Shown here piece after piece: positions 1 through 33,377 of a DNA stretch of 38,289 bases. The notes under the pieces were generated by a model. It was not told where the DNA came from. It saw only the letters and a list, made by a program, of their open reading frames with translations, and did no database searches. Numbering within the stretch: position 1 is the first letter of the stretch; each line of letters begins with the position of its first letter. The DNA is from Pontiellaceae bacterium (GTDB lineage: Bacteria; Verrucomicrobiota; Kiritimatiellia; Kiritimatiellales; Pontiellaceae), in contig JAFGVP010000153.1 of the NCBI GenBank assembly GCA_016937945.1, positions 1 through 38,289 on the forward strand. Direction: 5' to 3'. Position numbers and translations under genes: made by a program.

Positions 1-20
1 ATGCCGCCATTCGTTTTCAT
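1..20 (-). CDS. Start of a further operon gene (partial, runs off the window)
   Basis: An ATG at 20-18 overlaps the TGA (19-17) of the preceding 58-codon gene in the same ATGA arrangement used by most junctions of this operon. Only six codons are visible, beginning MKTNGG, so no function can be given. The conserved overlap geometry is the only reason to call it a gene. Confidence 0.45.
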
Positions 21-193
21 TTCAATCCGGCCCCGCATTTTCCGTGTTCAAACTGCGGACACTGGCTGCATTGATCCGAGCACGTGACCTTGTCGTCGCG
101 GGAAAGGAGTACAGCTCCCATACCGACCAATCCGGCCAGCGCGCCCCAACGGCCAACCTCTTTCATGAATTTTAAACGGGTTATCTTTTTCAT
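17..193 (-). CDS. Small membrane-anchored cysteine-motif protein (58 aa)
   Basis: This 58-residue protein has a basic N-terminus (MKKITRLKF), one hydrophobic segment at about residues 14-31 rich in Gly, Ala and Leu, and a short C-terminal tail with four cysteines (C38, C42, C45, C53; spacing Cx3Cx2Cx7C). By topology the cysteine tail should lie outside the cytoplasm. The cysteines could bind an Fe-S cluster or another metal, or form disulfides; the sequence does not decide. The start ATG overlaps the TGA of the NHL-propeller gene (ATGA), and its own TGA overlaps the next ATG, so it is translationally coupled on both sides. I do not recognise a named family. Its position suggests a partner of the NHL protein, which also has a cysteine cluster. 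Confidence 0.72.
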   Translation of the reverse strand: MKKITRLKFMKEVGRWGALAGLVGMGAVLLSRDDKVTCSDQCSQCPQFEHGKCGAGLK

Positions 194-1137
194 GGTTTCA
201 CCTCAAATCTGCGTACTTCATTCCGGACGGCATCCAGCACGAGAATGCGGCCCTGCGGATCCACGGCCAGATCAAGACCGGAGGGATCGTCCCCGAACAG
301 ATCAGGAGCAGCAACCACACAGCGGAACGAGCCGTCCGGATTATGCACTTTCACCCGTTGCAACCCCTTTTCCGCCGTCACAAACGAGCCATCGCGAAGA
401 AGCGTAAAATGAGCCGGATTACAGCATCCGCAGAAACCCTCCAGCGTCATGGAACTGTTTTCCCAGCGCGCCAGCAGAACGCCCTTTGCGGAATAGTGCT
501 CGAACGCATGGTATCCGGGATTCACCGCCCAAAGGCTTCCGTCCGACTCCAGATCAATATCAAAAAACGGGCTGGGCACATAAAATCCGCGATTTCCCGG
601 CCCGTCTTCCCGGCCGATTTCAAAGGCCTCGCCGCCGTCCCGGGGGAAGCGCCAGATCCTGCGGCTTCCGGCATCGGCGGCAAAGACATACTCCTCGCTC
701 ACCGCCAGCGAGGTGATATAGGACCGATCGGACGGCACATTCAGGGAGGCATAATCACCATCGGGAGAAATGGTCTTCAGCTTTCCCTCCAGCCCAATAT
801 AAATCATCCCGTCAGAGCCTACTGCCAGCGCAGTGGGTGTTCCATCAATACCGATTCGGCGATTATCCGGGTAAATAATAATTCTATCTTTCCCGGCCAC
901 ATAAAGTTTCCCCTCATCATCCACCGCCAGCGCAGAGAGCTCGTCCAGCTCAATAGGAATCGGCTCCACCTCCCGGTACCCGATCGCGGATTCATCAACC
1001 TGCCGATAGCTATCCAGCGAGTAGCTGAAGTTTTTCCCGGGGTCGCGCCGGCGACTGTTTCCGAGATAAATTCCGAGACCGAGCACCATCGCCATGATGA
1101 TCAGGAACCATGTCCAGTTCTGTGTCCGTTTCTTCAT
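190..1137 (-). CDS. Membrane-anchored NHL-type beta-propeller with CGCCNP motif
   Basis: The 315-residue product starts with MKKR and a single hydrophobic segment at about 10-26, followed by a soluble domain with repeated blades of the NHL type (for example LAVDDEGKLYV near 70-80 and LAVDPQGRILVLD near the C-terminus). This predicts a propeller held on the outer face of the inner membrane. A cysteine cluster CGCC (C236, C238, C239) followed by Asn-Pro sits between blades, with a well-formed blade DGSFVTAEKG just after it; such a cluster is unusual for a plain NHL scaffold and could bind a metal or cofactor. The gene overlaps both neighbours by ATGA. NHL propellers are usually binding scaffolds, so no enzymatic role is claimed. 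Confidence 0.82.
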   Translation of the reverse strand: MKKRTQNWTWFLIIMAMVLGLGIYLGNSRRRDPGKNFSYSLDSYRQVDESAIGYREVEPIPIELDELSALAVDDEGKLYVAGKDRIIIYPDNRRIGIDGTPTALAVGSDGMIYIGLEGKLKTISPDGDYASLNVPSDRSYITSLAVSEEYVFAADAGSRRIWRFPRDGGEAFEIGREDGPGNRGFYVPSPFFDIDLESDGSLWAVNPGYHAFEHYSAKGVLLARWENSSMTLEGFCGCCNPAHFTLLRDGSFVTAEKGLQRVKVHNPDGSFRCVVAAPDLFGDDPSGLDLAVDPQGRILVLDAVRNEVRRFEVKP

Positions 1138-2573
1138 TGCGAAGCTCCTATATCAATGCAGACCATCCGGGTTGAATCCCGCAGCAGCATCCGGTTTCCG
1201 ACCACCGCAATGGGGCCCCACGCATCATGACCATCCAGAACCCGGAACCGCGCCAGCGGTTCATATCCGCCGCGGCTGTACGCCAGCATGCTCAGAGTCC
1301 CGTCATCATCGAGAATATAAAAACGGTCGTTCGCCAGAATATACGGTCCCAAACCGAAGCGGGTTTCCTTGCCGCTGGACCAGACCAGCTCTCCGCTGTC
1401 CGGATCGTAGCAGACGAACTGCTGCTTCAGGGCACCGGCATCCTTGGGCATGATTCCGAACAGGAGTCCGTCGCGATAAATCGGGGTTTGCTGTTCACTC
1501 GCCAGCCACTCTTTGGGACCGTTCCGGGACAGCTCCGTCGCCGTAAATTCATCGTCCTTCCGGTCGATGCGGAACATCAGGCTGCCGGCCCCATAACCGG
1601 CGGTGATAAAGATGCGGTTATCGTCAAGCAGCACCGGAGACGGCGCAACCACCGAGGCGTTCCATGGAATCTCCCACAGCCGACGCCCCTCTTTGGATAC
1701 ACCGGTAATTCCGCCGACCGCCACATAGACATACATTTCCTCCCCGTGGATCGTCATCGGCATGATGGAGGAATGCGACATGCTCCAGCCGTTTGGATTC
1801 GGCACGGTCCATTTCACCGACCCATCGGCACAATCCACCGCCATCATCAGCACATCCGGCCCGCCGGGTGCAATAATCGCCCGTCCGCCATCGATCAGCG
1901 GGCACTGTCCGGTAAACCAGAGCGGCTCCGTGGTTCCATATTCCTTCTGGAGATCAATCCCCCAGAGAAACCGGCCGGTTCCGGTATCCACGCAGGAAAC
2001 GTGACAGCGCGGCCCCATGGTGACGGTCCACTGTTCCGTTACCGCCGGAATCGTACGCGACAGGCCATGATTCCGTTTGGCCGGCAGCGGATAGGAGCGG
2101 CGCCAGATTTCCTTCCCGTCCTCGAGGGAAAAGCAGCGAAGCGCATCGGCGCGATTTTCTTCGTCATAATCCAGCAGGTAAACGCAGCCGTCAAATACCG
2201 CCGGCGCGGCATGCCCCTCGCCCAGCGCCACCGACCAGAGGATGCGCGGCCCGCTCTCCGGCCACTGATCGGCCAATGCCGTATCGGATTCGACCATGTT
2301 ATCAAAGGACGCTCCCCGGAAACGCGGCCAGCGCCCCGGCAGCTCCGATGCCACGCCGTCGTAGGTCTGCAGCGAACCGGACAGATCAATATCGGGCGAC
2401 GCCGTTACCGCCCGTTCCGCCGGTGTCGGTCCGCCATCCATGCCCGGCAGGCTCGGCATAACCACCAGATGCGGTGCCGGCACCATCCACCGGAAAAGCA
2501 GCGTGCCGCCGATTCCGGCCGACAGCAGGATGACCGGAAGCATAACGAACAGGATGGAGGAACGGGATTTCAT
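1134..2573 (-). CDS. Membrane-anchored PQQ-like beta-propeller protein
   Basis: The 479-residue protein begins MKSRSS and has one strong hydrophobic segment at about 7-29, then a soluble domain of PQQ-type blades (repeats such as GKEIWRR, GRFLWGID, GSVKWTV and GELVWSS). The hydrophobic segment has no obvious signal-peptidase site, so a membrane anchor is more likely than secretion. PQQ-like blades of this type occur in BamB-like scaffolds and in dehydrogenases. I see no clear calcium/PQQ active-site signature, so a structural or binding role is safer. It follows another propeller gene after 14 bases and overlaps the NHL gene by ATGA. It shares the blade pattern of the two other PQQ-like proteins in the operon, which suggests duplication within the cluster. 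Confidence 0.82.
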   Translation of the reverse strand: MKSRSSILFVMLPVILLSAGIGGTLLFRWMVPAPHLVVMPSLPGMDGGPTPAERAVTASPDIDLSGSLQTYDGVASELPGRWPRFRGASFDNMVESDTALADQWPESGPRILWSVALGEGHAAPAVFDGCVYLLDYDEENRADALRCFSLEDGKEIWRRSYPLPAKRNHGLSRTIPAVTEQWTVTMGPRCHVSCVDTGTGRFLWGIDLQKEYGTTEPLWFTGQCPLIDGGRAIIAPGGPDVLMMAVDCADGSVKWTVPNPNGWSMSHSSIMPMTIHGEEMYVYVAVGGITGVSKEGRRLWEIPWNASVVAPSPVLLDDNRIFITAGYGAGSLMFRIDRKDDEFTATELSRNGPKEWLASEQQTPIYRDGLLFGIMPKDAGALKQQFVCYDPDSGELVWSSGKETRFGLGPYILANDRFYILDDDGTLSMLAYSRGGYEPLARFRVLDGHDAWGPIAVVGNRMLLRDSTRMVCIDIGASQ

Positions 2574-2587
2574 GAATGCCTGAATGA

Positions 2588-3901
2588 TTATCTGAGATCA
2601 ACGCACTTGAGCGTGGTCCAGTCGCGAACCAGCAGCTTTCCGTCCGACAATGCCAGCGGCGCCCACGCCATATCGTTTTCCTTGACCATCGGCGCCGACG
2701 CCAGCTCCTTGTAGCCGGAGACATCGGCCCGCAGCAGATGCAGCATACCGGTCTTGGCATCGAGAATCACAATCTTGCCGTCCACCAGCAAAAAGCCGCC
2801 GCGTTCAAATGTCGGTCCGTTTTCGGCATCCTTGCTGCGCCAATCGACGATTCCATCCATCGACACGCAGATCAGCCCGTCGTTTTTCCGGTTTCCGTTG
2901 TTGGCCACGAGCAGATGACCGTCGAGATAAACGGGTTGATGAATCTGCGGGCTGACATCGTCAATCTTGAACAGCTCTTCCGCTTCATATCCCGTTTCTG
3001 TTTTCTTAATGCGGATCATGGCGGATCCGGCATCGTAGCCCCCGGTAATAAAGAGCCGCTCATCCGGCAGCCGCGTCGGGAACGGCACGGCATTACGGCA
3101 CTGCCAGCCGCTGTAATGCCACAAAACCGAACCGTCTGATGGAGATAATCCGAAGACTCCGCTCTTCGGCGGCGCGGCGGGCGTTTCTTCGGGCGTCTCA
3201 TTGCGCCGGCGCCGGCCGCCGGCTTCTGAACCGATCGCAACGATCATGTCCGTTCCACACAGCGAATACATCACCGGCGATGAAAATGTGTAGCCGCCGA
3301 TCGACTCCGACTTCCATGCAGGTGAACCGTCTTTGCAATGGTAAGCCGCTACGCCGGTTCTGTCGGAAGTGATTGCGACAATCACGAGATCGCCATACAG
3401 CAGCGGCGACTGCGACAGCCCCCATCGATTCAGTTCCATTTCAAATTCGCTGAGCAGATTATGTTTCCAGATCACCGATTTGGTTGCCAGATCAACGCAG
3501 ACCAGCGAACCCCAGCCGGTCACGAAATAGGCGGCATTATCGGTCACGGCCGGCGTACCACGCGTACCGGCAAACTGCTTGTGCGACATCGTGCCCGGAT
3601 CTTCCACGCCCACGTTCCAGAGTTCCGTCCCTTTTTCCAGATCCATGCAGCGAAGCAGGCTCACCTCTTCGCTGCGATCCACAAAGTAGACCTTTCCGGC
3701 GCGAATCGCCGGGGACGAGTAACCGTCATTCACCGACATTTCCCACAGAACTTTCGGCCCCGACTCCGGCCACGAATCCGCCAGTCCGGTTTCCGTGGAA
3801 ATGTTATCCCGCGCCGGTCCGCAGAACTGCGGCCAGTCGGCAGCCGATGCCGACAAAACCATCGCCGCACCGATCATTGATGCAATCCCGTGTTTCCCCA
3901 T
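2588..3901 (-). CDS. Secreted PQQ-like (BamB-like) beta-propeller protein
   Basis: The 437-residue product starts MGKHGIASMIG, has a hydrophobic signal segment and a likely signal-peptidase I site after SASA, and then enters the mature domain with ADWPQFCGPARDN, a hallmark opening of secreted PQQ-repeat proteins common in Planctomycetes and Verrucomicrobia. Blades include GTELWNVG, KSVIWKHN, GSVLWHYS and GIVDWRS. A Pro/Arg-rich insert (GRRRRNETPEETPAAPP) lies in the middle and is probably a surface loop. An AAGGAG Shine-Dalgarno sequence lies just upstream of the ATG, so this gene can start translation independently, unlike its ATGA-coupled neighbours. The gap to the upstream cyclase gene is 20 bases. 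Confidence 0.85.
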   Translation of the reverse strand: MGKHGIASMIGAAMVLSASAADWPQFCGPARDNISTETGLADSWPESGPKVLWEMSVNDGYSSPAIRAGKVYFVDRSEEVSLLRCMDLEKGTELWNVGVEDPGTMSHKQFAGTRGTPAVTDNAAYFVTGWGSLVCVDLATKSVIWKHNLLSEFEMELNRWGLSQSPLLYGDLVIVAITSDRTGVAAYHCKDGSPAWKSESIGGYTFSSPVMYSLCGTDMIVAIGSEAGGRRRRNETPEETPAAPPKSGVFGLSPSDGSVLWHYSGWQCRNAVPFPTRLPDERLFITGGYDAGSAMIRIKKTETGYEAEELFKIDDVSPQIHQPVYLDGHLLVANNGNRKNDGLICVSMDGIVDWRSKDAENGPTFERGGFLLVDGKIVILDAKTGMLHLLRADVSGYKELASAPMVKENDMAWAPLALSDGKLLVRDWTTLKCVDLR

Positions 3902-3921
3902 GACCCACTCCTTGTCTTGTA

Positions 3922-5577
3922 TTATTCCGGACTTCGCTCCCCTGCGACGTCCTTCCCCTGTTTATCTCCACAGCGCTTCAGCGCCTCGGTTATGAATATC
4001 AGGGGATACAGCTTTTCTGAATACCATAGACTCGCAAAATACAGGCCGATCGGACTAGCAGAAAACTGCGTTCCCTGAACGGTCAAATCCCGTATTTTAT
4101 CAACCCCATTCCCCGTCATTCCCACCAATAGAGCCAGATCCTCCAGCCCGCAATATTCCGGATGCTCCGCCGTTTTCGCCAGCCAGGTTCGGCCCTGGGA
4201 ACGCATCCATTCCAGCCGTAGAAAATCCTGTTTGTCCAACGTTTCCAGCGCCTCCATGACGCGCACGGTTCCGTACACCGGATTTTCTTTCTTTGGATGT
4301 AGCTGGCTTCCGAACCAGAGCGGAATCCATGATCCGTCCGGACGCTGGTTTCTCAACAGGTAATCCAGACCGATCTGCATGGCATTATACATGGCGGCAT
4401 CAAAATCTTCACCCAAATACCTGCGCCATAACGCAAATGCGCGAATCATGTGGGCCGTCAAATCGGGACAACTGCGATCGAACGGCAGCTTGCCCCACCC
4501 CTTGCAGAACGTCGGAATCCCGCCGTCGCGATTCTGCAGATCAATCAGCCACTCCACGCCGGAACGAACCGCCGGAAGAATCCGGGAAGTGACATCGCTG
4601 TCATCCTGCGGCCACAGATGATACAGGGCAATCAGGGCGGCCGCGGTATCATCCGCATCGGGAACGCCGCCGGGCCGGTTCGTCCAGCTCCACCCGCCGG
4701 GAGCCGCATGGGTAAAGGGATGCTCCTCCGTCATCTGATTTTGCAGCAGGTGCTCACGAATCGCATTGGTCTGCTCGACCGAAAGATCGCCGTCAAGCGC
4801 ACGTACACTCAGGGAGGTAAGCCAGGTTGAAAGATCCACATCGATCGGCCAGCTGCCATCGTCACGCACGGTGTTTTCAAGAAAGGAGAGACACTTCTGC
4901 GTGACCGGATGATCGCGATATCCGGCGCCGATCAGGCTCATGGCCACGAAACCGGTCAGCGGGGCCGCCTCCAGAAATCCACCGCTTTCCGGCTGAATGG
5001 ACCTGAGAATATCAAGTACCCTGCCGATCGCGCGTCGGCGCCAGAAGGCCCCGCGTACCGGCCGCTTCTCGTGCCGGACCAACCCCATGGAAATCAGGGC
5101 GGGCAGCGCATAGCTGACAACCGGCAGGCGCACCAGGCGGTAGAATCGATGCGGAAGCACGGCCAGTTCAAACGGGAGCTGCGGGATCACCGACCAGTCC
5201 GCACCCAGCTTTCCGGCCAGCATGCACAGGGTTAGGATCGGAATCGAAAAGGTCCGGTCCTCGCCATAAAAACCGAGGATGGCATCGCGCACCTTTTCGG
5301 GCGGACCGATCTCTTCACCCAGCACACTGCGGCACAGCAGGGTCGCGGTAAAGTTGCTCGGACTTTCCGGACTGTCGCCCCAGCCGCTGTCCGCATTTCG
5401 GTGCGTCCGTATCCACTGAAGACCGCGTTCGGCAAGCGCCGTTCGTCCGCCCAGAGCGAGGGCAAACGAGGCTACCGCCGTGGCCAGCGCGGAACTGGAG
5501 AGTTTCCCTTCCCAGAATCCCCGGTCATTGAGCTCGGCCAGCAGCCGATTGCGGCAGTTGTCGAGCAGGTCCGTCAT
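3922..5577 (-). CDS. Class II terpene (squalene-hopene-type) cyclase-like protein
   Basis: The 551-residue protein belongs to the squalene-cyclase/prenyltransferase alpha-alpha-barrel superfamily. It carries DADDTA at residues 307-312, matching the DXDD general-acid motif of class II cyclases, and QW-like repeats such as QNRDGGIP (348-355) and DGSWIPLWFG (414-423). The C-terminus (GLYFASLWYSEKLYPLIF, 511-528) strongly resembles squalene-hopene cyclases. It is shorter than a typical hopene cyclase (about 630-720 residues), closer in size to bacterial class II diterpene cyclases. The likely reaction is proton-initiated cyclisation of a linear isoprenoid, perhaps the product of the synthase two genes upstream; the substrate is not readable. 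I chose the ATG at 5577 because it forms an ATGA overlap with the upstream gene; an in-frame ATG at 5589 is an alternative. No signal peptide is evident. Confidence 0.8.
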   Translation of the reverse strand: MTDLLDNCRNRLLAELNDRGFWEGKLSSSALATAVASFALALGGRTALAERGLQWIRTHRNADSGWGDSPESPSNFTATLLCRSVLGEEIGPPEKVRDAILGFYGEDRTFSIPILTLCMLAGKLGADWSVIPQLPFELAVLPHRFYRLVRLPVVSYALPALISMGLVRHEKRPVRGAFWRRRAIGRVLDILRSIQPESGGFLEAAPLTGFVAMSLIGAGYRDHPVTQKCLSFLENTVRDDGSWPIDVDLSTWLTSLSVRALDGDLSVEQTNAIREHLLQNQMTEEHPFTHAAPGGWSWTNRPGGVPDADDTAAALIALYHLWPQDDSDVTSRILPAVRSGVEWLIDLQNRDGGIPTFCKGWGKLPFDRSCPDLTAHMIRAFALWRRYLGEDFDAAMYNAMQIGLDYLLRNQRPDGSWIPLWFGSQLHPKKENPVYGTVRVMEALETLDKQDFLRLEWMRSQGRTWLAKTAEHPEYCGLEDLALLVGMTGNGVDKIRDLTVQGTQFSASPIGLYFASLWYSEKLYPLIFITEALKRCGDKQGKDVAGERSPE

Positions 5578-6347
5578 TTCATCAGGCATCCAATGCTGAG
5601 CAGAGCATAAAAGGTGTATTCCACGTCTTCAAAAGCGTCGCCCGGATAGCCGGCAAAGCCGCCGGAATCGCGCCACTGCGATTCAATAAAATCAAAGCAG
5701 GCCGCACGAATACCGGAAAGATCGATATTCAGATTGCGAAGAGCCATCAGCGCCGTCGCCGTCGAGAGCAGATCGGCATGCGGTACATTGTTCGATGCGG
5801 CAAACCCGCCCTGCGGACAGAAGCGTTTCATCAGGATCGCTTCCGCCACAGGATCCGGACGATCATTGATCATTACGGATGCCGCCAGATTCGGCGTGGT
5901 CTGCGAATCGGAAATCAGCAGGTTTGCCTCCGGCTCATCATTGTGAAGAATCAGTTGCGATGCCGATACCTTGAAGAATAGATCATACGGCGTTTCCGCG
6001 GCCTTGGATTCCAGCATACCGGCAAAGCGGCGTCGCATTCCTGCAGTACAGGGAAAGATCAGGCGCAGGCGCAGCAGGCAGAAAAAATGGGCGGCATCCA
6101 GCGACGATCCGTCCCCGAAGGTCCGCAGATAACGATACAGGCGGAACCATGGAATCCGGCCGCGCAGGGCCACCATACTGAGCGTAGCAAAAAAGGTGTA
6201 ATATAGATCGCTTTTGGAATCGCGTCCCCGAACCCCTCCATCGGGATTCCAGCAGCGGGAGATAAATCCGACCACATGACGCCGGGAAACCGCATCCAGA
6301 TATTTTCGGGCTGCCGATGCTGCGCCCATGATCTGCCGGTCAATCAT
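5574..6347 (-). CDS. Prenyltransferase-repeat (squalene-cyclase-fold) protein, short
   Basis: This 257-residue protein contains blades typical of prenyltransferase beta-subunit/squalene oxidase repeats: NPDGGVRG near 34-41, CPQGGFAAS near the middle, and SGGFAGYPGDAFEDVEYTFYALLSIG close to the C-terminus (written here as a run of short motifs: GGFAGYPGD, then DVEYTFYALL). In protein prenyltransferases the last motif carries a zinc-ligand histidine; here that position region reads DVEYTFY, so the zinc site does not look intact. It may therefore be a non-catalytic or differently acting relative, possibly a partner of the adjacent DADD cyclase as a split alpha-alpha barrel. Its start overlaps the synthase stop and its stop overlaps the cyclase start, both by ATGA. 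Confidence 0.75.
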   Translation of the reverse strand: MIDRQIMGAASAARKYLDAVSRRHVVGFISRCWNPDGGVRGRDSKSDLYYTFFATLSMVALRGRIPWFRLYRYLRTFGDGSSLDAAHFFCLLRLRLIFPCTAGMRRRFAGMLESKAAETPYDLFFKVSASQLILHNDEPEANLLISDSQTTPNLAASVMINDRPDPVAEAILMKRFCPQGGFAASNNVPHADLLSTATALMALRNLNIDLSGIRAACFDFIESQWRDSGGFAGYPGDAFEDVEYTFYALLSIGCLMK

Positions 6348-7882
6348 GCCCGACCTCCCGCCGGCGTGAGCATCTTCGAGGTCGTGCGGCGCAGCAGGCT
6401 TTTCAGCGGAGCACTGGCCAGCGGATTCAGGGCCCGGATGGCCTCGTTTTTATAATGCTCCAGCAACTGGGCCGCTTTTTCCTCCACCATCATTTCCCGG
6501 AAGACATGATCCAGATTCGGCGAGTCTGGCGCATACCACTCCAAAGGACGCTGATCATTGGCCAGCGCGAGCAGGATCGACGCCCGCAGATCATGCTCTT
6601 CGCCGCTGCGGTATTCCTCCAGATCGTCGTGAATCTGATAGGCAATCCCGAGCGATTCGCTGAAACGGCGCAGGGCGGCATCCAGCCGATCATCCCCGCC
6701 GGCGGCCAGTGCCCCCAGCCGTAACGCGGCACCGAATGCCGGCGCGGTTTTGCGCCGGAATATTTCGATAAGCTGCGCCGCGGTGAACGGCGGCGTATCC
6801 ACCAGTCCTCGCAGCTCCTCGCCCTGACCGACGCACAGCATCCGATGGTTTTCCACCGCAATCCGCATCAGGTCCGCCGTCCGGGAAGGCACCGAAGCAA
6901 TCAGCCGGTATCCTTCGCCTACCAGAAAATCGCCGGCATTCAATGCAACGGGAATTCCATATTGGCAGTGCAGGGTCGGCGCGTTGTACCGCACCTCGTC
7001 ATCATCCTCGATATCGTCATGAATCAGGGATGCCTTGTGAAAACATTCAACGGCCAATGCCAGGCGGCGCACTTTCTCGGGGAAGATTCCATCTGCACCG
7101 GAAAGGGCGTCGTATGTGCAGGCCAGCAGATACGGCCGCCAGCGCTTCCCCTCCCCGCAGACCCATTCATAGGCAATCTGCTCGGTACGGGTATCCATCG
7201 AGTCGATCTCGATCGCAGAGAACCAGCCCTCAACCATTTCCCGGATCCGGGCGGTATCCACCTGATTTACCCAGGACGCGTCGGAGCGCAACCGGATCGC
7301 ATTACGCACATGCTCAACATCGGTGGTGGTGTCAATACACCCGCCGGCATTCAGCGGAATCGCCAGTCCGGGAATCGCGCCGTCCGCCATATGCGGAAAT
7401 GATTTTTCCAGCGCATTGAGACAGCTGACACCGATCACGGCATCGACTTTTCCTCCGTCGAGCAGGCGGGTCACCACGGTGGATCCTTCGGCGACGAGCA
7501 CGACATAACCGAGATCCTCCGCCAGCGACTGGAGCTCGCCGATATTGCAGCGGCCGCACTCTTCGCACAACAGGCCGAATTCATCCATTTCGGCGGGACA
7601 GTTTTTAAAATCGCGCAGACACTGAGGGAGCAGGAGAAGACGGCGCTCATAGGGAATGGATGCAACCGTTTCGCGCCAGACGGCGTTGTTCAGCAGGACC
7701 ATGACATAGTCCACGGAAACAGAGGACGGCGCCAGCTCCAGTGCATGATCGCGCAGTTCCTCCATCGAGAGCGGCGGTACAAGCCCCTGCTGATCAGCAT
7801 AGGTCTCTACCCGGAGGCGCAGCGAATCGCGCTCCTGCAGCGTTGAAGGAATTCCGTGTACACCGGTCTTTTCCATTTTCAT
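6344..7882 (-). CDS. DUF116 domain fused to a polyprenyl (isoprenyl) diphosphate synthase
   Basis: The 512-residue protein has two parts. Residues about 50-205 match DUF116: Cys residues at 88, 95, 106, 109 and 112, a VDAVIGVSCLNALEK segment (146-160) and NAGGCIDTTTDVE (178-190). Residues about 215-512 are a trans-isoprenyl diphosphate synthase, with GKRWRP (245-250), the first aspartate-rich motif HDDIEDDDE (288-296), KT at 378-379 and a second motif YQIHDDLEEY (415-424). The second motif ends in Glu instead of the usual Asp of DDxxD. The synthase would condense IPP with an allylic diphosphate and probably feeds the cyclase downstream. The DUF116 cysteines may bind an Fe-S cluster, which would fit the radical SAM and ferredoxin neighbours. 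The ATG at 7882 is chosen for its ATGA overlap with the radical SAM gene. Confidence 0.85.
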   Translation of the reverse strand: MKMEKTGVHGIPSTLQERDSLRLRVETYADQQGLVPPLSMEELRDHALELAPSSVSVDYVMVLLNNAVWRETVASIPYERRLLLLPQCLRDFKNCPAEMDEFGLLCEECGRCNIGELQSLAEDLGYVVLVAEGSTVVTRLLDGGKVDAVIGVSCLNALEKSFPHMADGAIPGLAIPLNAGGCIDTTTDVEHVRNAIRLRSDASWVNQVDTARIREMVEGWFSAIEIDSMDTRTEQIAYEWVCGEGKRWRPYLLACTYDALSGADGIFPEKVRRLALAVECFHKASLIHDDIEDDDEVRYNAPTLHCQYGIPVALNAGDFLVGEGYRLIASVPSRTADLMRIAVENHRMLCVGQGEELRGLVDTPPFTAAQLIEIFRRKTAPAFGAALRLGALAAGGDDRLDAALRRFSESLGIAYQIHDDLEEYRSGEEHDLRASILLALANDQRPLEWYAPDSPNLDHVFREMMVEEKAAQLLEHYKNEAIRALNPLASAPLKSLLRRTTSKMLTPAGGRA

Positions 7883-9072
7883 CCGTAGGCTCCAAATCCG
7901 AAAAACCAGTTTTTCTTGGCGAAACGGTAGGCCCAGCTGCGTTCCGGAATCTCCTTGCCCGGCTGATGATGACTCCCGCAGGCGCACATGTCGTCCAGCT
8001 CGTTCAAAAAGGTTCCCCGGCCGGAGCTGTCGACCGCATCTTCTTTCCGGATAAAATCCGCAAGCAGATCCGGATGCTCCATGATGATGCAGCCGCGCGT
8101 GGTATCGCAGCTCATCTGCCTGAATCGGGCAAGGAATTCCGACCGGTTGAACAGATCATACAACCCGGTCCCATCCCCGATGTTTTCTTTCGCAAACTGA
8201 AGCGGCGGACAGGGTTCAACCCAACCGTCCGGAGTGATATGATTGGCCATGCCGACCGCCGCCGGACACAGCGCCCGGCCTTGATCATCCCAATAGGCGT
8301 CCACCACCATCAGCGGCGCGGTTTTACGGATATCGACGATGAAACGGCGCAATGCCACAATCTGCTCCGCATCCAGAGCCAGTTCCGGCGTCGGATTCGG
8401 CCCGACCGGGCGGTAGATATAATACCAGAGATAATGCGCACCAAGATCGGCAACGCGCCGGACAAATTGTTCCGTGGCCAGATCCTCGATATTGGTTCGG
8501 CAGATACTCGTCGCCACGCCCGTTACCAGCCGATGCTCGCGACAATGAGCCAGGCCGGCCAGCGTCTGGCCGAAAACATTTTCGCCGCCGCGCCGGACAT
8601 CGCTGACCTCCTCGAGCCCCTCGATGCTGATCAACGGACTGATATTACCCAACCGGCGAATCTCCCGCGCTACGGAATCCGAGATCAGCGTGCCGTTGGT
8701 AAAGAGCAGGAAATAGCAGTCCGGATGCTTTTCAAACACCTCGAACAGCCCGTCATGCAACAACGGCTCTCCTCCGAGAATGCCGAAGAAATACGATCCA
8801 TGCGCCTTGCACTCCCGAATCAGGTTATCCAGAGTCTGCGGCGAAATATGTTTCGGAGGATTGGACTGCGACACCCAGCATCCCTGACACGACAGGTTGC
8901 AGGCGTTGGTGATGGAGATAAACAGGAAGGCCGGAAAATATTCGCCGCGCTTCAGGCGGTGGTTAAAGCGCTGCACGGCACGCATGCCCTTATAGCCGAA
9001 GTTATAGGCAAACTTCCAGAGCAGCCGTTTATCCGGCTCGGTCATCAGGCGCCCAATCATGGAATCACTCAT
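7879..9072 (-). CDS. Radical SAM protein with SPASM-like C-terminal cysteines
   Basis: The 397-residue protein has the radical SAM CxxxCxxC motif at C58, C62 and C65 (within NACNLSCQGCW), which binds the catalytic 4Fe-4S cluster, and a GGEPLL motif at 100-105 for SAM contacts. The C-terminal third has further cysteines (C269, C288, C322, C328, C363, C365) placed like a SPASM or twitch region that would hold one or two auxiliary clusters. The general chemistry is reductive cleavage of SAM to a 5'-deoxyadenosyl radical; the substrate is unknown. Its coupling to a dicluster ferredoxin upstream and an isoprenyl synthase downstream suggests lipid modification. HpnH, which attaches adenosine to hopene, is a precedent for radical SAM in terpenoid lipids, but I cannot claim orthology. 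The start at 9072 is chosen for the ATGA overlap; an in-frame ATG lies at 9090. Confidence 0.87.
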   Translation of the reverse strand: MSDSMIGRLMTEPDKRLLWKFAYNFGYKGMRAVQRFNHRLKRGEYFPAFLFISITNACNLSCQGCWVSQSNPPKHISPQTLDNLIRECKAHGSYFFGILGGEPLLHDGLFEVFEKHPDCYFLLFTNGTLISDSVAREIRRLGNISPLISIEGLEEVSDVRRGGENVFGQTLAGLAHCREHRLVTGVATSICRTNIEDLATEQFVRRVADLGAHYLWYYIYRPVGPNPTPELALDAEQIVALRRFIVDIRKTAPLMVVDAYWDDQGRALCPAAVGMANHITPDGWVEPCPPLQFAKENIGDGTGLYDLFNRSEFLARFRQMSCDTTRGCIIMEHPDLLADFIRKEDAVDSSGRGTFLNELDDMCACGSHHQPGKEIPERSWAYRFAKKNWFFGFGAYG

Positions 9073-9758
9073 TGGTCGCCTCCCGAGCACTTGCGCCGTT
9101 CCTCCAGCGCCCGCTCAATTTTTTTACGGTTGAGCAGCGCTTTCCGCTTCTGCTTTCGCGCCCGCAGGGCGGCATAGACATCGTCGCCAAGAATCTCATC
9201 TACATTCACCCGGATATTGGCACGGACGGCGGCTTCATCGTCGATCTCCGCCCCGTTGATCGGCACCTCGACCGACTTTGGGAAAATGATGGCGGCTTCG
9301 GGACAGATGCGAGCACAGGCCGGACAGTTATTCTTGCACTGATCGGGATTCACAACGCGGATTCGGCCATCCGGCGCTTTTTCGTAGACCCCGAAAAGAC
9401 AGAATTCAAGACACTGCCCGCAGCTGCTGCAGCGGTCATAATCAATGACCGGATACCATGCCGGCGGCTTGTCTTCCATCGTGCCCAAAGCGGCATGTCC
9501 GGCCCCGTCACATCGACAATCGATTACTTGCGTTGTATCCGGAAGCGGATGCCCCGCAAAACGAAACAGCGACTGCACCGCCCGGGGATGGCAGGCATGC
9601 ACTTCTGAAAACGCGCCGCCAAGCATCGGATCACCATCGGCAACCGCGCGACACAGATCAGGAATCACCAGAACCGATTCGCCCCCGGCAATTCCATCGG
9701 TATCCACCAGCCCCCGCTCGGCGCAGCGACAAACAAGAATGGACTTATTTGCTGACAT
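9069..9758 (-). CDS. 4Fe-4S dicluster ferredoxin-like protein with N-terminal Cys domain
   Basis: The 229-residue product has two ferredoxin motifs: C110xxC113xxC116xxxC120 and C141xxxC145xxC148xxxC152. The second has one extra residue between its first two cysteines. The N-terminal 100 residues are a separate domain with CRC at 10-12, further cysteines (C36, C56) and a second CRC at 81-83, which could hold another cluster. The C-terminal 40 residues are strongly charged and helical (RKQKRKALLNRKK). No signal peptide is seen, so it should act in the cytoplasm, plausibly as electron donor to the radical SAM protein encoded immediately after it. The ATG at 9758 overlaps the end of the propeller gene by 14 bases; an ATG at 9812 is less likely because it would increase the overlap. 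Confidence 0.82.
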   Translation of the reverse strand: MSANKSILVCRCAERGLVDTDGIAGGESVLVIPDLCRAVADGDPMLGGAFSEVHACHPRAVQSLFRFAGHPLPDTTQVIDCRCDGAGHAALGTMEDKPPAWYPVIDYDRCSSCGQCLEFCLFGVYEKAPDGRIRVVNPDQCKNNCPACARICPEAAIIFPKSVEVPINGAEIDDEAAVRANIRVNVDEILGDDVYAALRARKQKRKALLNRKKIERALEERRKCSGGDQ

Positions 9759-10923
9759 CAACGGCAACCAGCGTTCCCTTGTCATTCCGGCAGTACACGG
9801 TTCCGTCTGCAAGAACCGGCGAAGTCCAGCACAGCTGCTTCAGGCCGGTTTCGAACCGGGCAAGCTCGTCATATTTTTCCGGCGCCGCCTGCACCACATA
9901 GAGAGAACCCCGCTCATCCAGCACAATCAGTTTTCCATCGGCGGCAATCAGCGATCCGAACCCGATCTTCGTGCTCCATTTTTCGGATCCGTCTTCGGCG
10001 GAAATACAACGAAGGGATCCCTTATTCTTGGTCTGCCCATCGATACCGTAAATGTAGCCATCCAGATAGATACAGCTGCTGAACTGACTTTGGATCAGTT
10101 TGTTTTCCCAAACCTTTTTCAACGATCCCGACGCGAAGTCCAGCATGGCGCATCCATGCCCGTATCCCGATGTAATAAAGATCCGTTCCCCGATAACCAT
10201 CGGGTCGGCACCGTTGACATCCCAGGAGGTTTTCCACTCGTAGGAATCCACCTTTTTGCCGGTACGAACATCGGCAAGCTCCAATCCGGCGGCGGTAAAG
10301 AAGAGTCCCACGGATTTTCCCTTGCGCTCCATGATCACCGGCGACGCATAGCTCTGGTCGCCTTTGCTGGCCCATGCCACCTTGCCGCTGTTTTTATCAA
10401 GTGCCGTTCCGTGATCCCCGATATTGACCAGCAGCAGATCTCCGGCAATTACGGCGGAGGAGGCAATGCCCCACTTGCTGTTGTTGCTGCCCGACTCCTT
10501 GAGCGCTTCCGTTTTCCAGACCAGCTTTCCGCTGTCGGCATTGAGACAGAAAACCTCACCGTCGCGGCTCACCATGTAAAGTCGTTCATCTTCGACAATC
10601 GGCGTGGCACGCGGTCCTTTAAAGCTTCCGGTTGAACAGGGATAGCTGTAGCGCCAAGCTTCCTTGCCGGAACCGGCATTCAGGCAGTAGACGATATCCA
10701 GACCATCCACATGGCCGGCGGAATAGACTTTTCCGTTTTTCACACTGACCGAGGAATAGCCATCTCCCAGCTCCACGGTCCATTTGACCGATGCCGCACG
10801 CATGCTCCATCCGGTCTCTGCTGAAATTCCGTTCTGCTCCGGTCCACGCCAGACCGGCCAATCGTCTGCCCGCACCTGATCTGCAACCAGACCGGCGAGC
10901 AATAATGCTGCCCAATGTTTCAT
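9745..10923 (-). CDS. Secreted PQQ-like (BamB-like) beta-propeller; first gene of the operon
   Basis: The 392-residue protein starts MKHWAALLLAG, has a signal peptide ending near VRA and a mature domain opening DDWPVWRGPEQNG, the same hallmark as the other secreted propeller of this cluster. Blades include GKEAWRYS, GKLVWKTE, GKVAWASK and GSEKWSTK. A GGGGAG Shine-Dalgarno sequence sits upstream of the ATG at 10923. The frame stays open upstream to 11061, but no ribosome site is seen there and the upstream residues are not signal-like, so the shorter start is preferred. The product should be periplasmic or bound to the outer envelope. It is the promoter-proximal gene, divergent from uvrB. Confidence 0.86.
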   Translation of the reverse strand: MKHWAALLLAGLVADQVRADDWPVWRGPEQNGISAETGWSMRAASVKWTVELGDGYSSVSVKNGKVYSAGHVDGLDIVYCLNAGSGKEAWRYSYPCSTGSFKGPRATPIVEDERLYMVSRDGEVFCLNADSGKLVWKTEALKESGSNNSKWGIASSAVIAGDLLLVNIGDHGTALDKNSGKVAWASKGDQSYASPVIMERKGKSVGLFFTAAGLELADVRTGKKVDSYEWKTSWDVNGADPMVIGERIFITSGYGHGCAMLDFASGSLKKVWENKLIQSQFSSCIYLDGYIYGIDGQTKNKGSLRCISAEDGSEKWSTKIGFGSLIAADGKLIVLDERGSLYVVQAAPEKYDELARFETGLKQLCWTSPVLADGTVYCRNDKGTLVAVDVSK

Positions 10924-28279: not shown

Positions 28280-28966
28280 ATGAATTCACAGAACCCATTT
28301 GATTTCTGGTATGCCGTAAACAACACCGAGCTGATCACGGCTCCGAGCAGCCGGCTCGAAACCTTTGGCGACACCATCGTAAACTATTATCTCGTCACCG
28401 AACTCATGGACAGCATCGATAAGGTCCGAATACGAGAAGGCCACCTCAAGGCGCTCAAGCCGGAAATTATTACACCGCAGGGACTCGGTCAGATGGATCT
28501 GCCGGATTTCGGATCCGAAGCCCGTAAATATGCCGACTGGCTGACCGAAAACGCCGGTGACCTCAGAATCCTTCAGTACGGCTTCCGCGTGCAGAAACAG
28601 GAACTTAAGGAATATGTCATCAGCGACAACATCGAGAATGTGCTCGATCGCGTTAAATCCGAGGTGGAAGCCAAGGACGACCCACTCAGTTCCATCCTGC
28701 GCGGCGTGGAGGACCCATGGGAAGTATGCCTGCTCAAACTGATGGTTGAACTGGTACAGCACTCCGCATCGGGTAACATCAAGGACATTCAAAACCGCGT
28801 ACGCGTACAGGAACAGAACCGGGTTCAACAGATTGATCAGGCCTTTCTGGATGCATCGCGGAATCACGCATTGATTAACGACCTCGCTGAAATGCTCCGG
28901 AAAAACGGCCTTTGGGATAAATACGAAGACCGCTTCTTCGCACTCGTCCGCGCTTCGGAACGGTAG
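28280..28966 (+). CDS. Conserved-looking protein of unknown function (228 aa)
   Basis: The 228-residue product starts MNSQNPFDFWYAVNNTE. It has no signal peptide, membrane segment or cysteine motif and is mostly helical by composition. Two regions look structured: TPQGLGQMDLPDFGSEARKYADWL and VEDPWEVCLLKLMVELVQHSASGN. I do not recognise the family. The gene follows smc after 259 bases on the same strand and ends with TAG. Codon usage resembles the core genes around it and not the damaged genes further right. A clear Shine-Dalgarno sequence is not visible, so the start may be elsewhere, although the N-terminus reads well. Confidence 0.72.
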   Translation: MNSQNPFDFWYAVNNTELITAPSSRLETFGDTIVNYYLVTELMDSIDKVRIREGHLKALKPEIITPQGLGQMDLPDFGSEARKYADWLTENAGDLRILQYGFRVQKQELKEYVISDNIENVLDRVKSEVEAKDDPLSSILRGVEDPWEVCLLKLMVELVQHSASGNIKDIQNRVRVQEQNRVQQIDQAFLDASRNHALINDLAEMLRKNGLWDKYEDRFFALVRASER

Positions 28967-31415: not shown

Positions 31416-33302
31416 TCAATCCAGCGTTTCCCATTCATAAAATGTGGGGTTTTTCGGTCCGGTCGGATGCACGCGCCTGCAGTCAGTATTCATGTAGGCA
31501 CCCGCAGGCAGTTTTTCAAGCTTGTTCAGATTCTCGAACAGCCAGCTTGCGGATTCCCGATGGGCTATGATCTCTCCCCGTTCATCCCTGACCAGCACCA
31601 GATAGTGCGCAAACTCGTGCCCTCGATTAATATCCCGCTGTATATAATCCCGCAGTCGGATCTTTGCGCCTGATAGGATGATTTCTTCAGACTCCGATGG
31701 CACGAAAGTGCCCTTCCGTTTCTCGAGCAGTACATACTTATCACGATCCAGCCGCTGTCTGCCGATCGCATAGTAACTCACATGGAGTCCATGATGATAG
31801 GGTTTGGAACCCTGCGCCTTGACGCTGGCCTTAAAAGAATACTCACTCACAGAAGGCGGAATTTCTTCGTGAAGAAAAATCGTCCCCTTGTAATAACCTG
31901 TAAGCTGGTCCTGCTTGTTATGGAACTCAATATCAAGCTGGGGCGGATTATAAAGTTCAACATAGAAACGATCGGACTCCACCAGGGAATCCAGCGGGAT
32001 TTTGATCTCTTTCCTAGCCGCATCAACGAGCCAGACCCGATCCATCACCACTTTGTCATATTTGGCCTGTATTGTTTTTCCGGAAGTCGTGGTCCAAGTT
32101 CGTAACTCAGGCTCCTGTTTCTTATCGACAGACGCGTCCTTCTCCACATTGGCCTGCTTTGCGACATCGGTCGCAGTGGTGCTTGCACCGTAATCATTAA
32201 AGACCGGCCCGTTGGTCAGCTTGGCTTCACCATATACAAGATGCTCAGCGATGGCGTCGATCACACCCCACGAAGGCGTTTCCGTTGTGAACATGGGCAG
32301 AATCGGGCCACCCTGATCGTTGGTTTCATAGTCCACGCCATCGACCTCAACCAGCAACTGGGCGCAGAAGCTCCCTCCCGGAATCTCCCCAATCAGCACC
32401 TCCATGTCCAGAGGAACCCCGGGTTCTAGGGTGATCCAGTCACTGATCTGGGCTCCGCGGATTCCCAACCGATAGACGCCCGACTCCGGAGCAGGGCTAT
32501 GCCAGCCACACCCGACCTGCACCACCGAGTCCGGCCAACTTCCCGCCAGCACCAATTTGCCATCAAGCCGAACCATCAGGATATCGTCGCCAAACCCCCA
32601 GAACCGAAACTTGATGCCGTCTTTATGAACCAGCTTCCCCTTGTAGTGTACGGCCCAGCAATAGCCAGCAGCCCCCGGCTCGCCAAACGACTCCGGACCA
32701 AGGTCCGAAGGGATGCTGGGAACCATGAAGCAGGTGGCATATCGCTTATTGGGTGACTTGTAATATCGGCTGAACAGCGTAGTGTTCCAATCCGAAAGGA
32801 TGAAACGCAATATCGCCTCCTCGAAATCGTTCTGGTCTATGGACTGGCCGGCTCCGGTTGACCTACGGTTGAAATCATAGTATGTGCCGATGAAATCGCT
32901 GCCGGTGGAAACTTTGGAGCCCATCAATCGGACGGTGTTGATATCCGGAAGGTCCATGAATACCCCGCCATCACCGGTTCCCCCACTCAGCAATCCTTCA
33001 CCACTTCCCATCATATCGGGCAACTGGATTTCCGGCATATCCCGGCTCTTGACCTTGGCCACAATGCGCGAGGACGGTTTGGGTTGGGAACTTTTCTGAA
33101 CCTTCACCTTGGGTTTCTTAAGCTGCATCTTGGGCCGCTCGATCGGAGCGGGCTGCACAAATTCAGGCTCAGCCTTATTCACCACCGTGAATACGACAAA
33201 CAAGCCGGCAACAAAGAATACCGCCGCATGGAAAATCAGACTGACCAACAATCCGCTGGGAGCCCCTTTGTTTACGCTGGTCTTCCTGTTTTTCTTCGAC
33301 AT
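31416..33302 (-). CDS. TonB-like membrane protein with PA14-like region and SHD1 domain
   Basis: The 628-residue protein begins MSKKNRKTS, has one transmembrane segment at about 17-41, and then a Pro/Lys-rich stretch (PAPIERPKMQLKKPKVKVQK, cited as PAPIERPKM) like the periplasmic spacer of TonB. Residues about 136-330 resemble a PA14-type beta-barrel: GTYYDFNR, FSRYYKSP, and DDILMVRLDGKLVLAGSW. Residues about 399-450 match the SHD1 fold (RTWTTTSGKTIQAKY, KEIKIPLDSL). No TonB C-terminal domain is seen, so it is unlikely to energise a TonB receptor. SHD1 and PA14 together are typical of Verrucomicrobia-type envelope proteins and may bind sugars or protein. The ATG at 33302 has GGAGG five bases upstream; an ATG at 33314 is part of that site. 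Confidence 0.83.
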   Translation of the reverse strand: MSKKNRKTSVNKGAPSGLLVSLIFHAAVFFVAGLFVVFTVVNKAEPEFVQPAPIERPKMQLKKPKVKVQKSSQPKPSSRIVAKVKSRDMPEIQLPDMMGSGEGLLSGGTGDGGVFMDLPDINTVRLMGSKVSTGSDFIGTYYDFNRRSTGAGQSIDQNDFEEAILRFILSDWNTTLFSRYYKSPNKRYATCFMVPSIPSDLGPESFGEPGAAGYCWAVHYKGKLVHKDGIKFRFWGFGDDILMVRLDGKLVLAGSWPDSVVQVGCGWHSPAPESGVYRLGIRGAQISDWITLEPGVPLDMEVLIGEIPGGSFCAQLLVEVDGVDYETNDQGGPILPMFTTETPSWGVIDAIAEHLVYGEAKLTNGPVFNDYGASTTATDVAKQANVEKDASVDKKQEPELRTWTTTSGKTIQAKYDKVVMDRVWLVDAARKEIKIPLDSLVESDRFYVELYNPPQLDIEFHNKQDQLTGYYKGTIFLHEEIPPSVSEYSFKASVKAQGSKPYHHGLHVSYYAIGRQRLDRDKYVLLEKRKGTFVPSESEEIILSGAKIRLRDYIQRDINRGHEFAHYLVLVRDERGEIIAHRESASWLFENLNKLEKLPAGAYMNTDCRRVHPTGPKNPTFYEWETLD

Positions 33303-33377
33303 ATAAACCTCCATAGTCTAACAAACCTGAAAAAAATAATGCGGCAAATGGACCAAAGCTGACCGGTCCGACTTGAC

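Follow-up and report, generated by a model that had tools for sequence, protein, structure and literature searches.

An operon of a Pontiellaceae bacterium as part of a conserved gene system joining isoprenoid synthesis and cyclisation with radical SAM and electron-transfer proteins

The window examined here, a 38,289-nucleotide stretch of DNA from a Pontiellaceae bacterium, carries at one end an operon of ten uninterrupted genes (p1 to p10) in which proteins of isoprenoid synthesis and cyclisation are encoded together with a radical S-adenosylmethionine (SAM) enzyme and beta-propellers. Our observations are best explained by a conserved system of three modules, the first half of which lies in the window. 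We propose that this system makes a polycyclic isoprenoid lipid from a prenyl diphosphate, exports it, and couples it to a conduit carrying electrons from NADH to the periplasm, a proposal for which we judge the case to be almost evenly balanced. The main protein families involved are already known, and it is their conserved multi-module combination that is apparently new. As the window is a complete contig (C82 of genome G000, which amounts to 4.28 Mb in 183 contigs and is 94.6% complete), the operon, which runs on the minus strand from the ATG of p1 at 10923 to the stop of p10 ending at 17, is cut short by the contig end; an eleventh gene, p11, starts at 20 and runs off the contig. The genes are as follows.

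p1, 9745..10923, minus strand: PQQ_2-type beta-propeller at the head of the operon (PF13360, E 4e-35)
p2, 9069..9758, minus strand: unassigned N-terminal cysteine domain and C-terminal 2x[4Fe-4S] ferredoxin (PF13237, 31 vs 25.5 bits)
p3, 7879..9072, minus strand: radical SAM/SPASM-like enzyme of a family without a name (PF04055, 63 vs 29.5 bits)
p4, 6344..7882, minus strand: DUF116 (about 7295-7717) fused to a trans-polyprenyl synthase (about 6596-7180)
p5, 5574..6347, minus strand: alpha-alpha toroid (prenyltransferase-repeat) protein (PF00432, E 6e-10)
p6, 3922..5577, minus strand: squalene-hopene-cyclase-like protein with a PDADDT acid motif (PF13243 83.7 bits and PF13249 42.2 bits, both over cut-off)
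p7, 2588..3901, minus strand: lineage-restricted PQQ_2 propeller (PF13360, 63.6 vs 27.6 bits)
p8, 1134..2573, minus strand: PQQ_2 propeller (PF13360) with an N-terminal hydrophobic anchor (hydropathy 2.27), first gene of module 2
p9, 190..1137, minus strand: NHL-repeat propeller with an N-terminal hydrophobic anchor (hydropathy 1.91; PF01436, 30.2 vs 20 bits)
p10, 17..193, minus strand: 58-residue protein with four cysteines and a moderately hydrophobic N-terminus (hydropathy 1.42)
p11, 1..20, minus strand: first codons of a presumed Tat-type ferredoxin, with an apparent continuation on contig C51 and the order as in genome G029

Re-derived boundaries bear out an earlier interpretation made from the letters of this DNA (the sequence-only reading), which had described ten complete genes and part of another on a single strand, with seven 4-base ATGA overlaps. 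These lie at p2/p3, p3/p4, p4/p5, p5/p6, p8/p9, p9/p10 and p10/p11, a count that takes the ATG inside ATGA as the start, longer open reading frame (ORF) readings existing for p2, p3, p4 and p6. The overlap of p1 and p2 is 14 bases, and gaps of 20 and 14 bases separate p6 from p7 and p7 from p8. The families that reading had named were also right by Pfam (PQQ_2 three times, NHL, 4Fe-4S dicluster, Radical_SAM, DUF116 with polyprenyl_synt, Prenyltrans and SQHop_cyclase), but of the small cysteine proteins to which it referred in the plural, only p10 is whole within the window.

The core of the system (module 1) consists of p2 to p6. The p4 protein belongs to both the polyprenyl synthase and the DUF116 families, with profiles well over the gathering score (PF00348, E 3e-39, 135.2 vs 27 bits; PF01976, E 3e-37, 128.1 vs 25 bits) and an AlphaFold2 model of mean pLDDT 91.3. 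Across 36 aligned sequences, the synthase half retains its HDDIED and QxxDD motifs (D289, D290, D293, D419 and D420 invariant), and seven cysteines of the DUF116 half (C88, C95, C106, C109, C112, C154 and C182) are likewise invariant. Archaeal DUF116 proteins are, in a passage of PMC5898192, termed predicted metal-binding proteins. The p6 protein falls within the SQHop_cyclase superfamily, and its PDxDDT motif is kept, with D307, D309 and D310 invariant in 21 aligned sequences; among solved structures squalene-hopene cyclase (SHC) is its best match (2e-35), class II cyclases being weaker (2e-13 and 4e-8). Aligned relatives conserve the cysteine pattern of p2, which is a probable electron donor, and the CxxxCxxC motif of p3. 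None of the NCBIfam models shown reaches its cut-off for p3. The candidate assignments to known hopanoid enzymes were rejected, with p6 scoring 66.8 vs 431.1 bits as a squalene-hopene cyclase (TIGR01507) and p3 scoring 36.6 vs 225.05 bits as the adenosyl-hopene transferase HpnH (TIGR03470).

This core recurs well outside the family of the window. The best 80 of 503 candidate loci from one scan of genome contigs were sorted by hand into 29 from Verrucomicrobiota/Lentisphaerota/Kiritimatiellota, 33 from Planctomycetota, 12 from Acidobacteriota and 6 other or unnamed. By ORF clustering, p4 is present in all 80, p2 in 65, p5 in 63, p3 in 60 and p6 in 48, counts which are lower bounds, contig ends cutting many of the loci; the core genes share the strand of p4 in 95-100%. 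The usual order is p2-p3-p4-p5-p6, and loci of Verrucomicrobiota-type bacteria, Planctomycetota and Acidobacteriota are for the most part collinear in the core. Exceptions include L044, with p4 after p6 and p7, and L083, L112 and L116, with p3 apart or on the other strand; in L063 and L106, p3-p4 alone are in view. The best named match of p4 (74% identity) is from a metagenome-assembled genome labelled Lentisphaerae (L039), and falls in an 8-row clade with Kiritimatiellales and Pontiellaceae. In the p4 tree phyla group together.

For each gene the search covered one set of 288 genomes of the phylum, with p4 taken at E 8.7e-79 or better among 83 listed matches. Both p4 and p6 occur in 51 genomes and are shared in 50 (G213 has p4 only, G245 p6 only), while p3 occurs in 47, all of them p4 genomes (47 of 51, against none of the 237 others). 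A Tat-type ferredoxin of the kind presumably begun by p11 was found in 47 genomes, comprising 41 of the 51 with p4 and six of the 237 others, and matches to p9 were found in 40, 34 of them with p4. The 41 genomes with both p4 and the ferredoxin span 19 families, and in 16 of these, from 7 families, no more than 10 kb separates the ferredoxin from p4 or p6. The sequence-only reading had asked whether the gene order recurs elsewhere and whether the radical SAM, DUF116-synthase and cyclase genes co-occur. The recurrence is more than chance, and the idea of one set, conserved and probably co-expressed, in which genes for isoprenoid synthesis and cyclisation stand with those for radical SAM chemistry and for probably extracytoplasmic propellers, is upheld; nor are propeller and terpenoid genes adjacent in this genome alone or parts of separate known operons, as propeller module and core stand side by side elsewhere, in differing orders. 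PF00494 (squalene/phytoene synthase) was not detected at E 0.001 in the window genome, and is absent from 41 of the 51 p4 genomes, the window genome included. In most carriers, therefore, the usual route does not supply p6 with squalene, while a regular prenyl diphosphate can come from its partner p4.

Module 2 consists of p8, p9, a small cysteine protein, the ferredoxin, a NapH-like iron-sulfur membrane protein, an anchored PQQ_2 propeller (p1b), NuoEF and a NuoG-like protein. The ferredoxin has a conserved twin-Arg, which we take to mark it as Tat-type. NuoE and NuoF are fused in one protein, which in locus L164 scores 173.8 bits for PF01257, 147 for PF01512 and 119 for PF10589, and the NuoG-like protein has NuoG-type [2Fe-2S]/[4Fe-4S] and FAD/NAD-binding domains. 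Assignment of the NapH-like protein as a NapH quinol dehydrogenase (TIGR02163) was rejected at 50.7 vs 213.05 bits, the L082 protein alone having been scored. Module 2 lies 3' of the core in G029, G083, G191 and G227, 5' of it on the same strand in L053 and L094, and beside it on the opposite strand in L050, L051 and L082. The best match to NapH in the window genome is on C51, a contig of 5,388 bases that carries, in order, the ferredoxin (cut), NapH, p1b and NuoEF (cut). Contigs C82 and C51 show no overlap, and the gene order in G029 suggests that they are neighbors. In G029 a p10-like cysteine segment and the ferredoxin form, as judged by eye, one protein (L149, 5877-6506), and because of this p10 may be the split-off N-terminal part of the ferredoxin protein. 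An electron-transfer role had been suggested earlier for the window's propellers and cysteine proteins; a role of this kind remains plausible for the system, but the likely carriers are mainly the ferredoxin, NapH-like and NuoEF proteins, which lie outside the window. The window genome also holds a second, diverged ferredoxin/NapH pair (G000:C174:4759-5879; 44% and 32% identity to the queries).

Module 3, found near the core of several loci, comprises a propeller (c50), a GT4 glycosyltransferase, an ABC ATPase and an FtsX permease of about 1,050-1,100 residues. When sought at E 1e-20 or better in 80 hand-chosen genomes, the permease was present in 49 of 51 p4 genomes, in all six genomes having module 2 without the core, and in none of 23 others. 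The window genome has a propeller end, ABC ATPase and FtsX on contig C127. In G029, 18 recognised genes representing all three modules occupy about 27 kb of a single strand in this order: p1 to p9, ferredoxin, NapH, p1b, NuoEF, NuoG-like, GT4, propeller, ABC and FtsX, with gaps that hold ORFs of 222, 331 and 110 residues without assignment. In G109, from another family, 15 genes (some at 22-28% identity) follow in order on one strand: p1, p2, p3, p4, p5, p6, p8, p9, ferredoxin, NapH, p1b, NuoEF, propeller, ABC and FtsX, with p3 and p6 placed from separate genome-wide gene searches. The gene set first noticed in the window is thus part of a larger one, of which p7, recognised in just 5 of the 80 loci, all near the window's clade, is a lineage-restricted member. 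As a separate observation, the core genes and FtsX of family f44 are scattered over the genome (L160, L161 and L189 of G187; L176 and L190 of G066); the ferredoxin was not found in these two genomes, and PF00494 is present.

Given these associations, it is reasonable to postulate the following division of labor. Module 1 would make the polycyclic isoprenoid, the synthase half of p4 supplying a regular all-trans prenyl diphosphate of a chain length that we can only infer, and p6 would cyclise this chain, rather than squalene, through proton attack from its DXDD motif. As a second toroid, p5 may bind or present the chain, and p3, fed by the ferredoxin p2 and helped by the cysteine-rich DUF116 half of p4, may modify the chain or its head. 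The prediction of a cyclised isoprenoid as product comes from the enzyme families. Module 3 would glycosylate and export the lipid, and module 2 would pass electrons from NADH across the membrane, presumably in that direction, to periplasmic propellers which could bind, reduce or use the lipid. It is genome context that points to a coupling of lipid to electron conduit, with the lipid as the putative link between the modules.

Several observations weigh against this proposal. The product and activity of the system are predictions from sequence, and the Fisher p-values for gene pairs (2e-25 to 8e-54) ignore the relatedness of the genomes. The modules are separable in some genomes, since six carry modules 2 and 3 without p3, p4 or p6, and ten p4 genomes are without the ferredoxin (two of these, G213 and G263, are 84 and 88% complete); in G157, G225 and G095, module 2 lies well inside a contig other than that of the core. 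Of the FtsX matches, about a dozen are weak, being partial or of 25-31% identity (E 1e-28 to 1e-71), and are best considered putative orthologues; these occur in families f40 and f46 and some other genomes, where orthology is argued from context. PF00494 is present in 10 of the 51 core genomes. Ten of the 80 loci (L050, L054, L066, L069, L075, L082, L092, L096, L100 and L110) lack p3 and contain another radical SAM protein, of about 525 residues and placed 1.5-3 kb before p4 in nine of the ten and 10 kb before it in L075; it resembles the B12-binding type TIGR04013 below cut-off (64.5 vs 251 bits). Finally, many cores lie near genes of another kind, encoding a CobW-type GTPase (35 of 80 loci, including all 12 from Acidobacteriota), GcvH (33), a short protein like the N-terminal part of p2 (30) and a NifS-like protein (28), loci with such genes including L049, L056, L107 and L116. 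Of the 80, L051 alone combines GcvH or CobW with module 2 in view, but a CobW relative is found near the core or module 3 of G109 and G115, which also have module 2 genes. At one alignment position of GcvH, presumably the lipoyl-lysine, at least 90% of 33 rows agree, and the GcvH, CobW and NifS-like genes may represent another electron or sulfur supply to the core.

An alternative, close to what the sequence-only reading had in mind, is that the product is itself a membrane electron carrier, either a quinone substitute or a meroterpenoid, reduced by NapH and NuoEF and reoxidised by the propellers. The genomic link between the core and an NADH-linked electron module that includes a NapH-like protein would suit such a carrier, as would the occurrence of PF02621 (which we take to be MqnA/MqnD-type) in just 16 of the 58 genomes tested, in a search that covered only the menaquinone route to which PF02621 belongs, and the lack of a UbiA match in the p4 genomes G205, G278 and G287. 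The ten p4 genomes without ferredoxin argue against a carrier, however, as do the finding of UbiA in 55 of these 58 genomes and its absence from the operon, where neither UbiA nor a head-group gene was recognised among the Pfam matches of p1-p9 or p10. The window genome's UbiA stands beside two PF02621 genes on contig C140, away from the operon, which argues that the operon is not that genome's quinone pathway. The quinone-like product once proposed is thus not supported, and we consider the electron-carrier explanation improbable, if the best placed of the alternatives.

It is also conceivable that the isoprenoid becomes attached to a protein, with p5 and p3 maturing a lipidated periplasmic propeller or small cysteine protein and the FtsX/ABC pair releasing a lipoprotein. 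The best matches of p5 among solved structures are RabGGTase beta subunits, together with SQHop-type cyclases, p3 has several radical SAM/SPASM relatives that modify peptides, and FtsX permeases can handle lipoproteins. However, protein prenyltransferase beta subunits have a zinc-ligand Asp/Cys/His set, and in 23 p5 sequences no cysteine is conserved at 90% or more, though one, near a conserved histidine, reaches 70% or more. Short ORFs were omitted from the gene maps, and a precursor peptide could thus have been missed. This explanation ranks below that of the electron carrier, and we regard it as unlikely. The least probable explanation is that the modules are functionally unrelated and cluster through shared regulation or common inheritance within Planctomycetes-Verrucomicrobia-Chlamydiae (PVC)-type bacteria, as modules do occur apart in some genomes and phyla do group in the p4 tree, but their adjacency recurs in seven families in differing orders and orientations, and the distribution of FtsX (49 of 51 vs 0 of 23) is not of the kind that unrelated modules would be expected to display.

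The proposed three-module system resembles several known ones in part. The hopanoid pathway (squalene synthesis, SHC and HpnH) likewise has an SHC-superfamily cyclase near a radical SAM enzyme, but the window genome lacks a PF00494 match, and p6 and p3 fall far under the cut-offs of the hopanoid enzymes. The p6 profile also matches the solved SQHop_cyclase_C proteins 7xq4 and 8zg0, which presumably cyclise prenyl diphosphates, and ent-copalyl diphosphate synthase 5bp8, albeit more weakly than SHC; we know of no class II diphosphate cyclase cluster with modules 2 and 3. NapGH and the peripheral arm of complex I share with module 2 a NapH-like membrane iron-sulfur protein with polyferredoxin and NuoE, NuoF and NuoG-type domains, but here the NapH-like protein scores far below the NapH model and the partners are PQQ-like and NHL propellers. 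A precedent is the C35 sesquarterpene pathway of Bacillus (HepPP, YtpB and SqhC), in which a prenyl synthase product passes to a squalene-hopene-cyclase homologue without squalene, although the excerpted text of PMC8144471 mentions no radical SAM, DUF116, exporter or electron module. No description of the gene system was found in the full-text literature searched (titles and abstract starts; most subscription papers and all preprints lay outside it), and the portion of PMC8303584 consulted covers planctomycete terpenoid clusters in general terms.

That the gene system has been kept together across several phyla suggests that these bacteria probably depend on what it does. A cyclised regular polyprenoid, if this is what the core makes, would be a new class of bacterial lipid, and the old geochemical question of which bacteria make tricyclic terpane precursors would become testable. 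Were the electron module to act on that lipid, NADH would be connected to the periplasm in a new way. According to an excerpt of PMC10464518, Ourisson et al. (1982) held that tricyclic terpanes may derive from bacterial cell membranes. A broader claim, about which we are doubtful, is that several phyla possess an undescribed envelope system in which regular polyprenyl diphosphate is turned directly into a polycyclic lipid of a new class, which after export serves as lipid partner to a transmembrane electron conduit, fed by NADH, whose end points are periplasmic beta-propellers. Sedimentary tricyclic terpanes, the sources of which are unsettled, could in part be diagenetic products of such a lipid. 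Direct testing is possible in a named strain, Pontiella sulfatireligans F21 (L044), which has the core along with part of module 2.

The remaining observations concern the propellers and the rest of the window. Conserved motifs are evident in 25 rows of p8, and at least 85% of 20 rows of p9 share its GCCNP motif. The N-terminal hydropathy maxima of p1 (0.77) and p7 (1.26) fall under 1.6, and a secretion signal is likely by eye only. In the window's clade the p1 orthologue lies 5' of p2, and in two of the six genomes having module 2 without the core (G136 and G273) a p1 relative (41-44%) heads module 2. An assignment as PQQ-dependent dehydrogenase was rejected, the best scores, both from p1, being 48.9 vs 480.05 (TIGR03075) and 18.1 vs 832.65 (TIGR03074). 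Preceding p7 in Pontiellaceae (L042, L043 and L044) is a gene of about 140 codons whose product is VOC/glyoxalase-like by eye. Elsewhere in the window, the ORFs at 28280-28966 and 31416-33314 have no Pfam match at 1e-5, and Pfam matches between 13141 and 36475 identify a rhomboid protein, an SNF2 helicase, a THUMP methyltransferase, an SMC protein, a C39-like peptidase, an alpha-amylase and two class II tRNA synthetases, one of the Asp type (by its GAD domain) and one for His.

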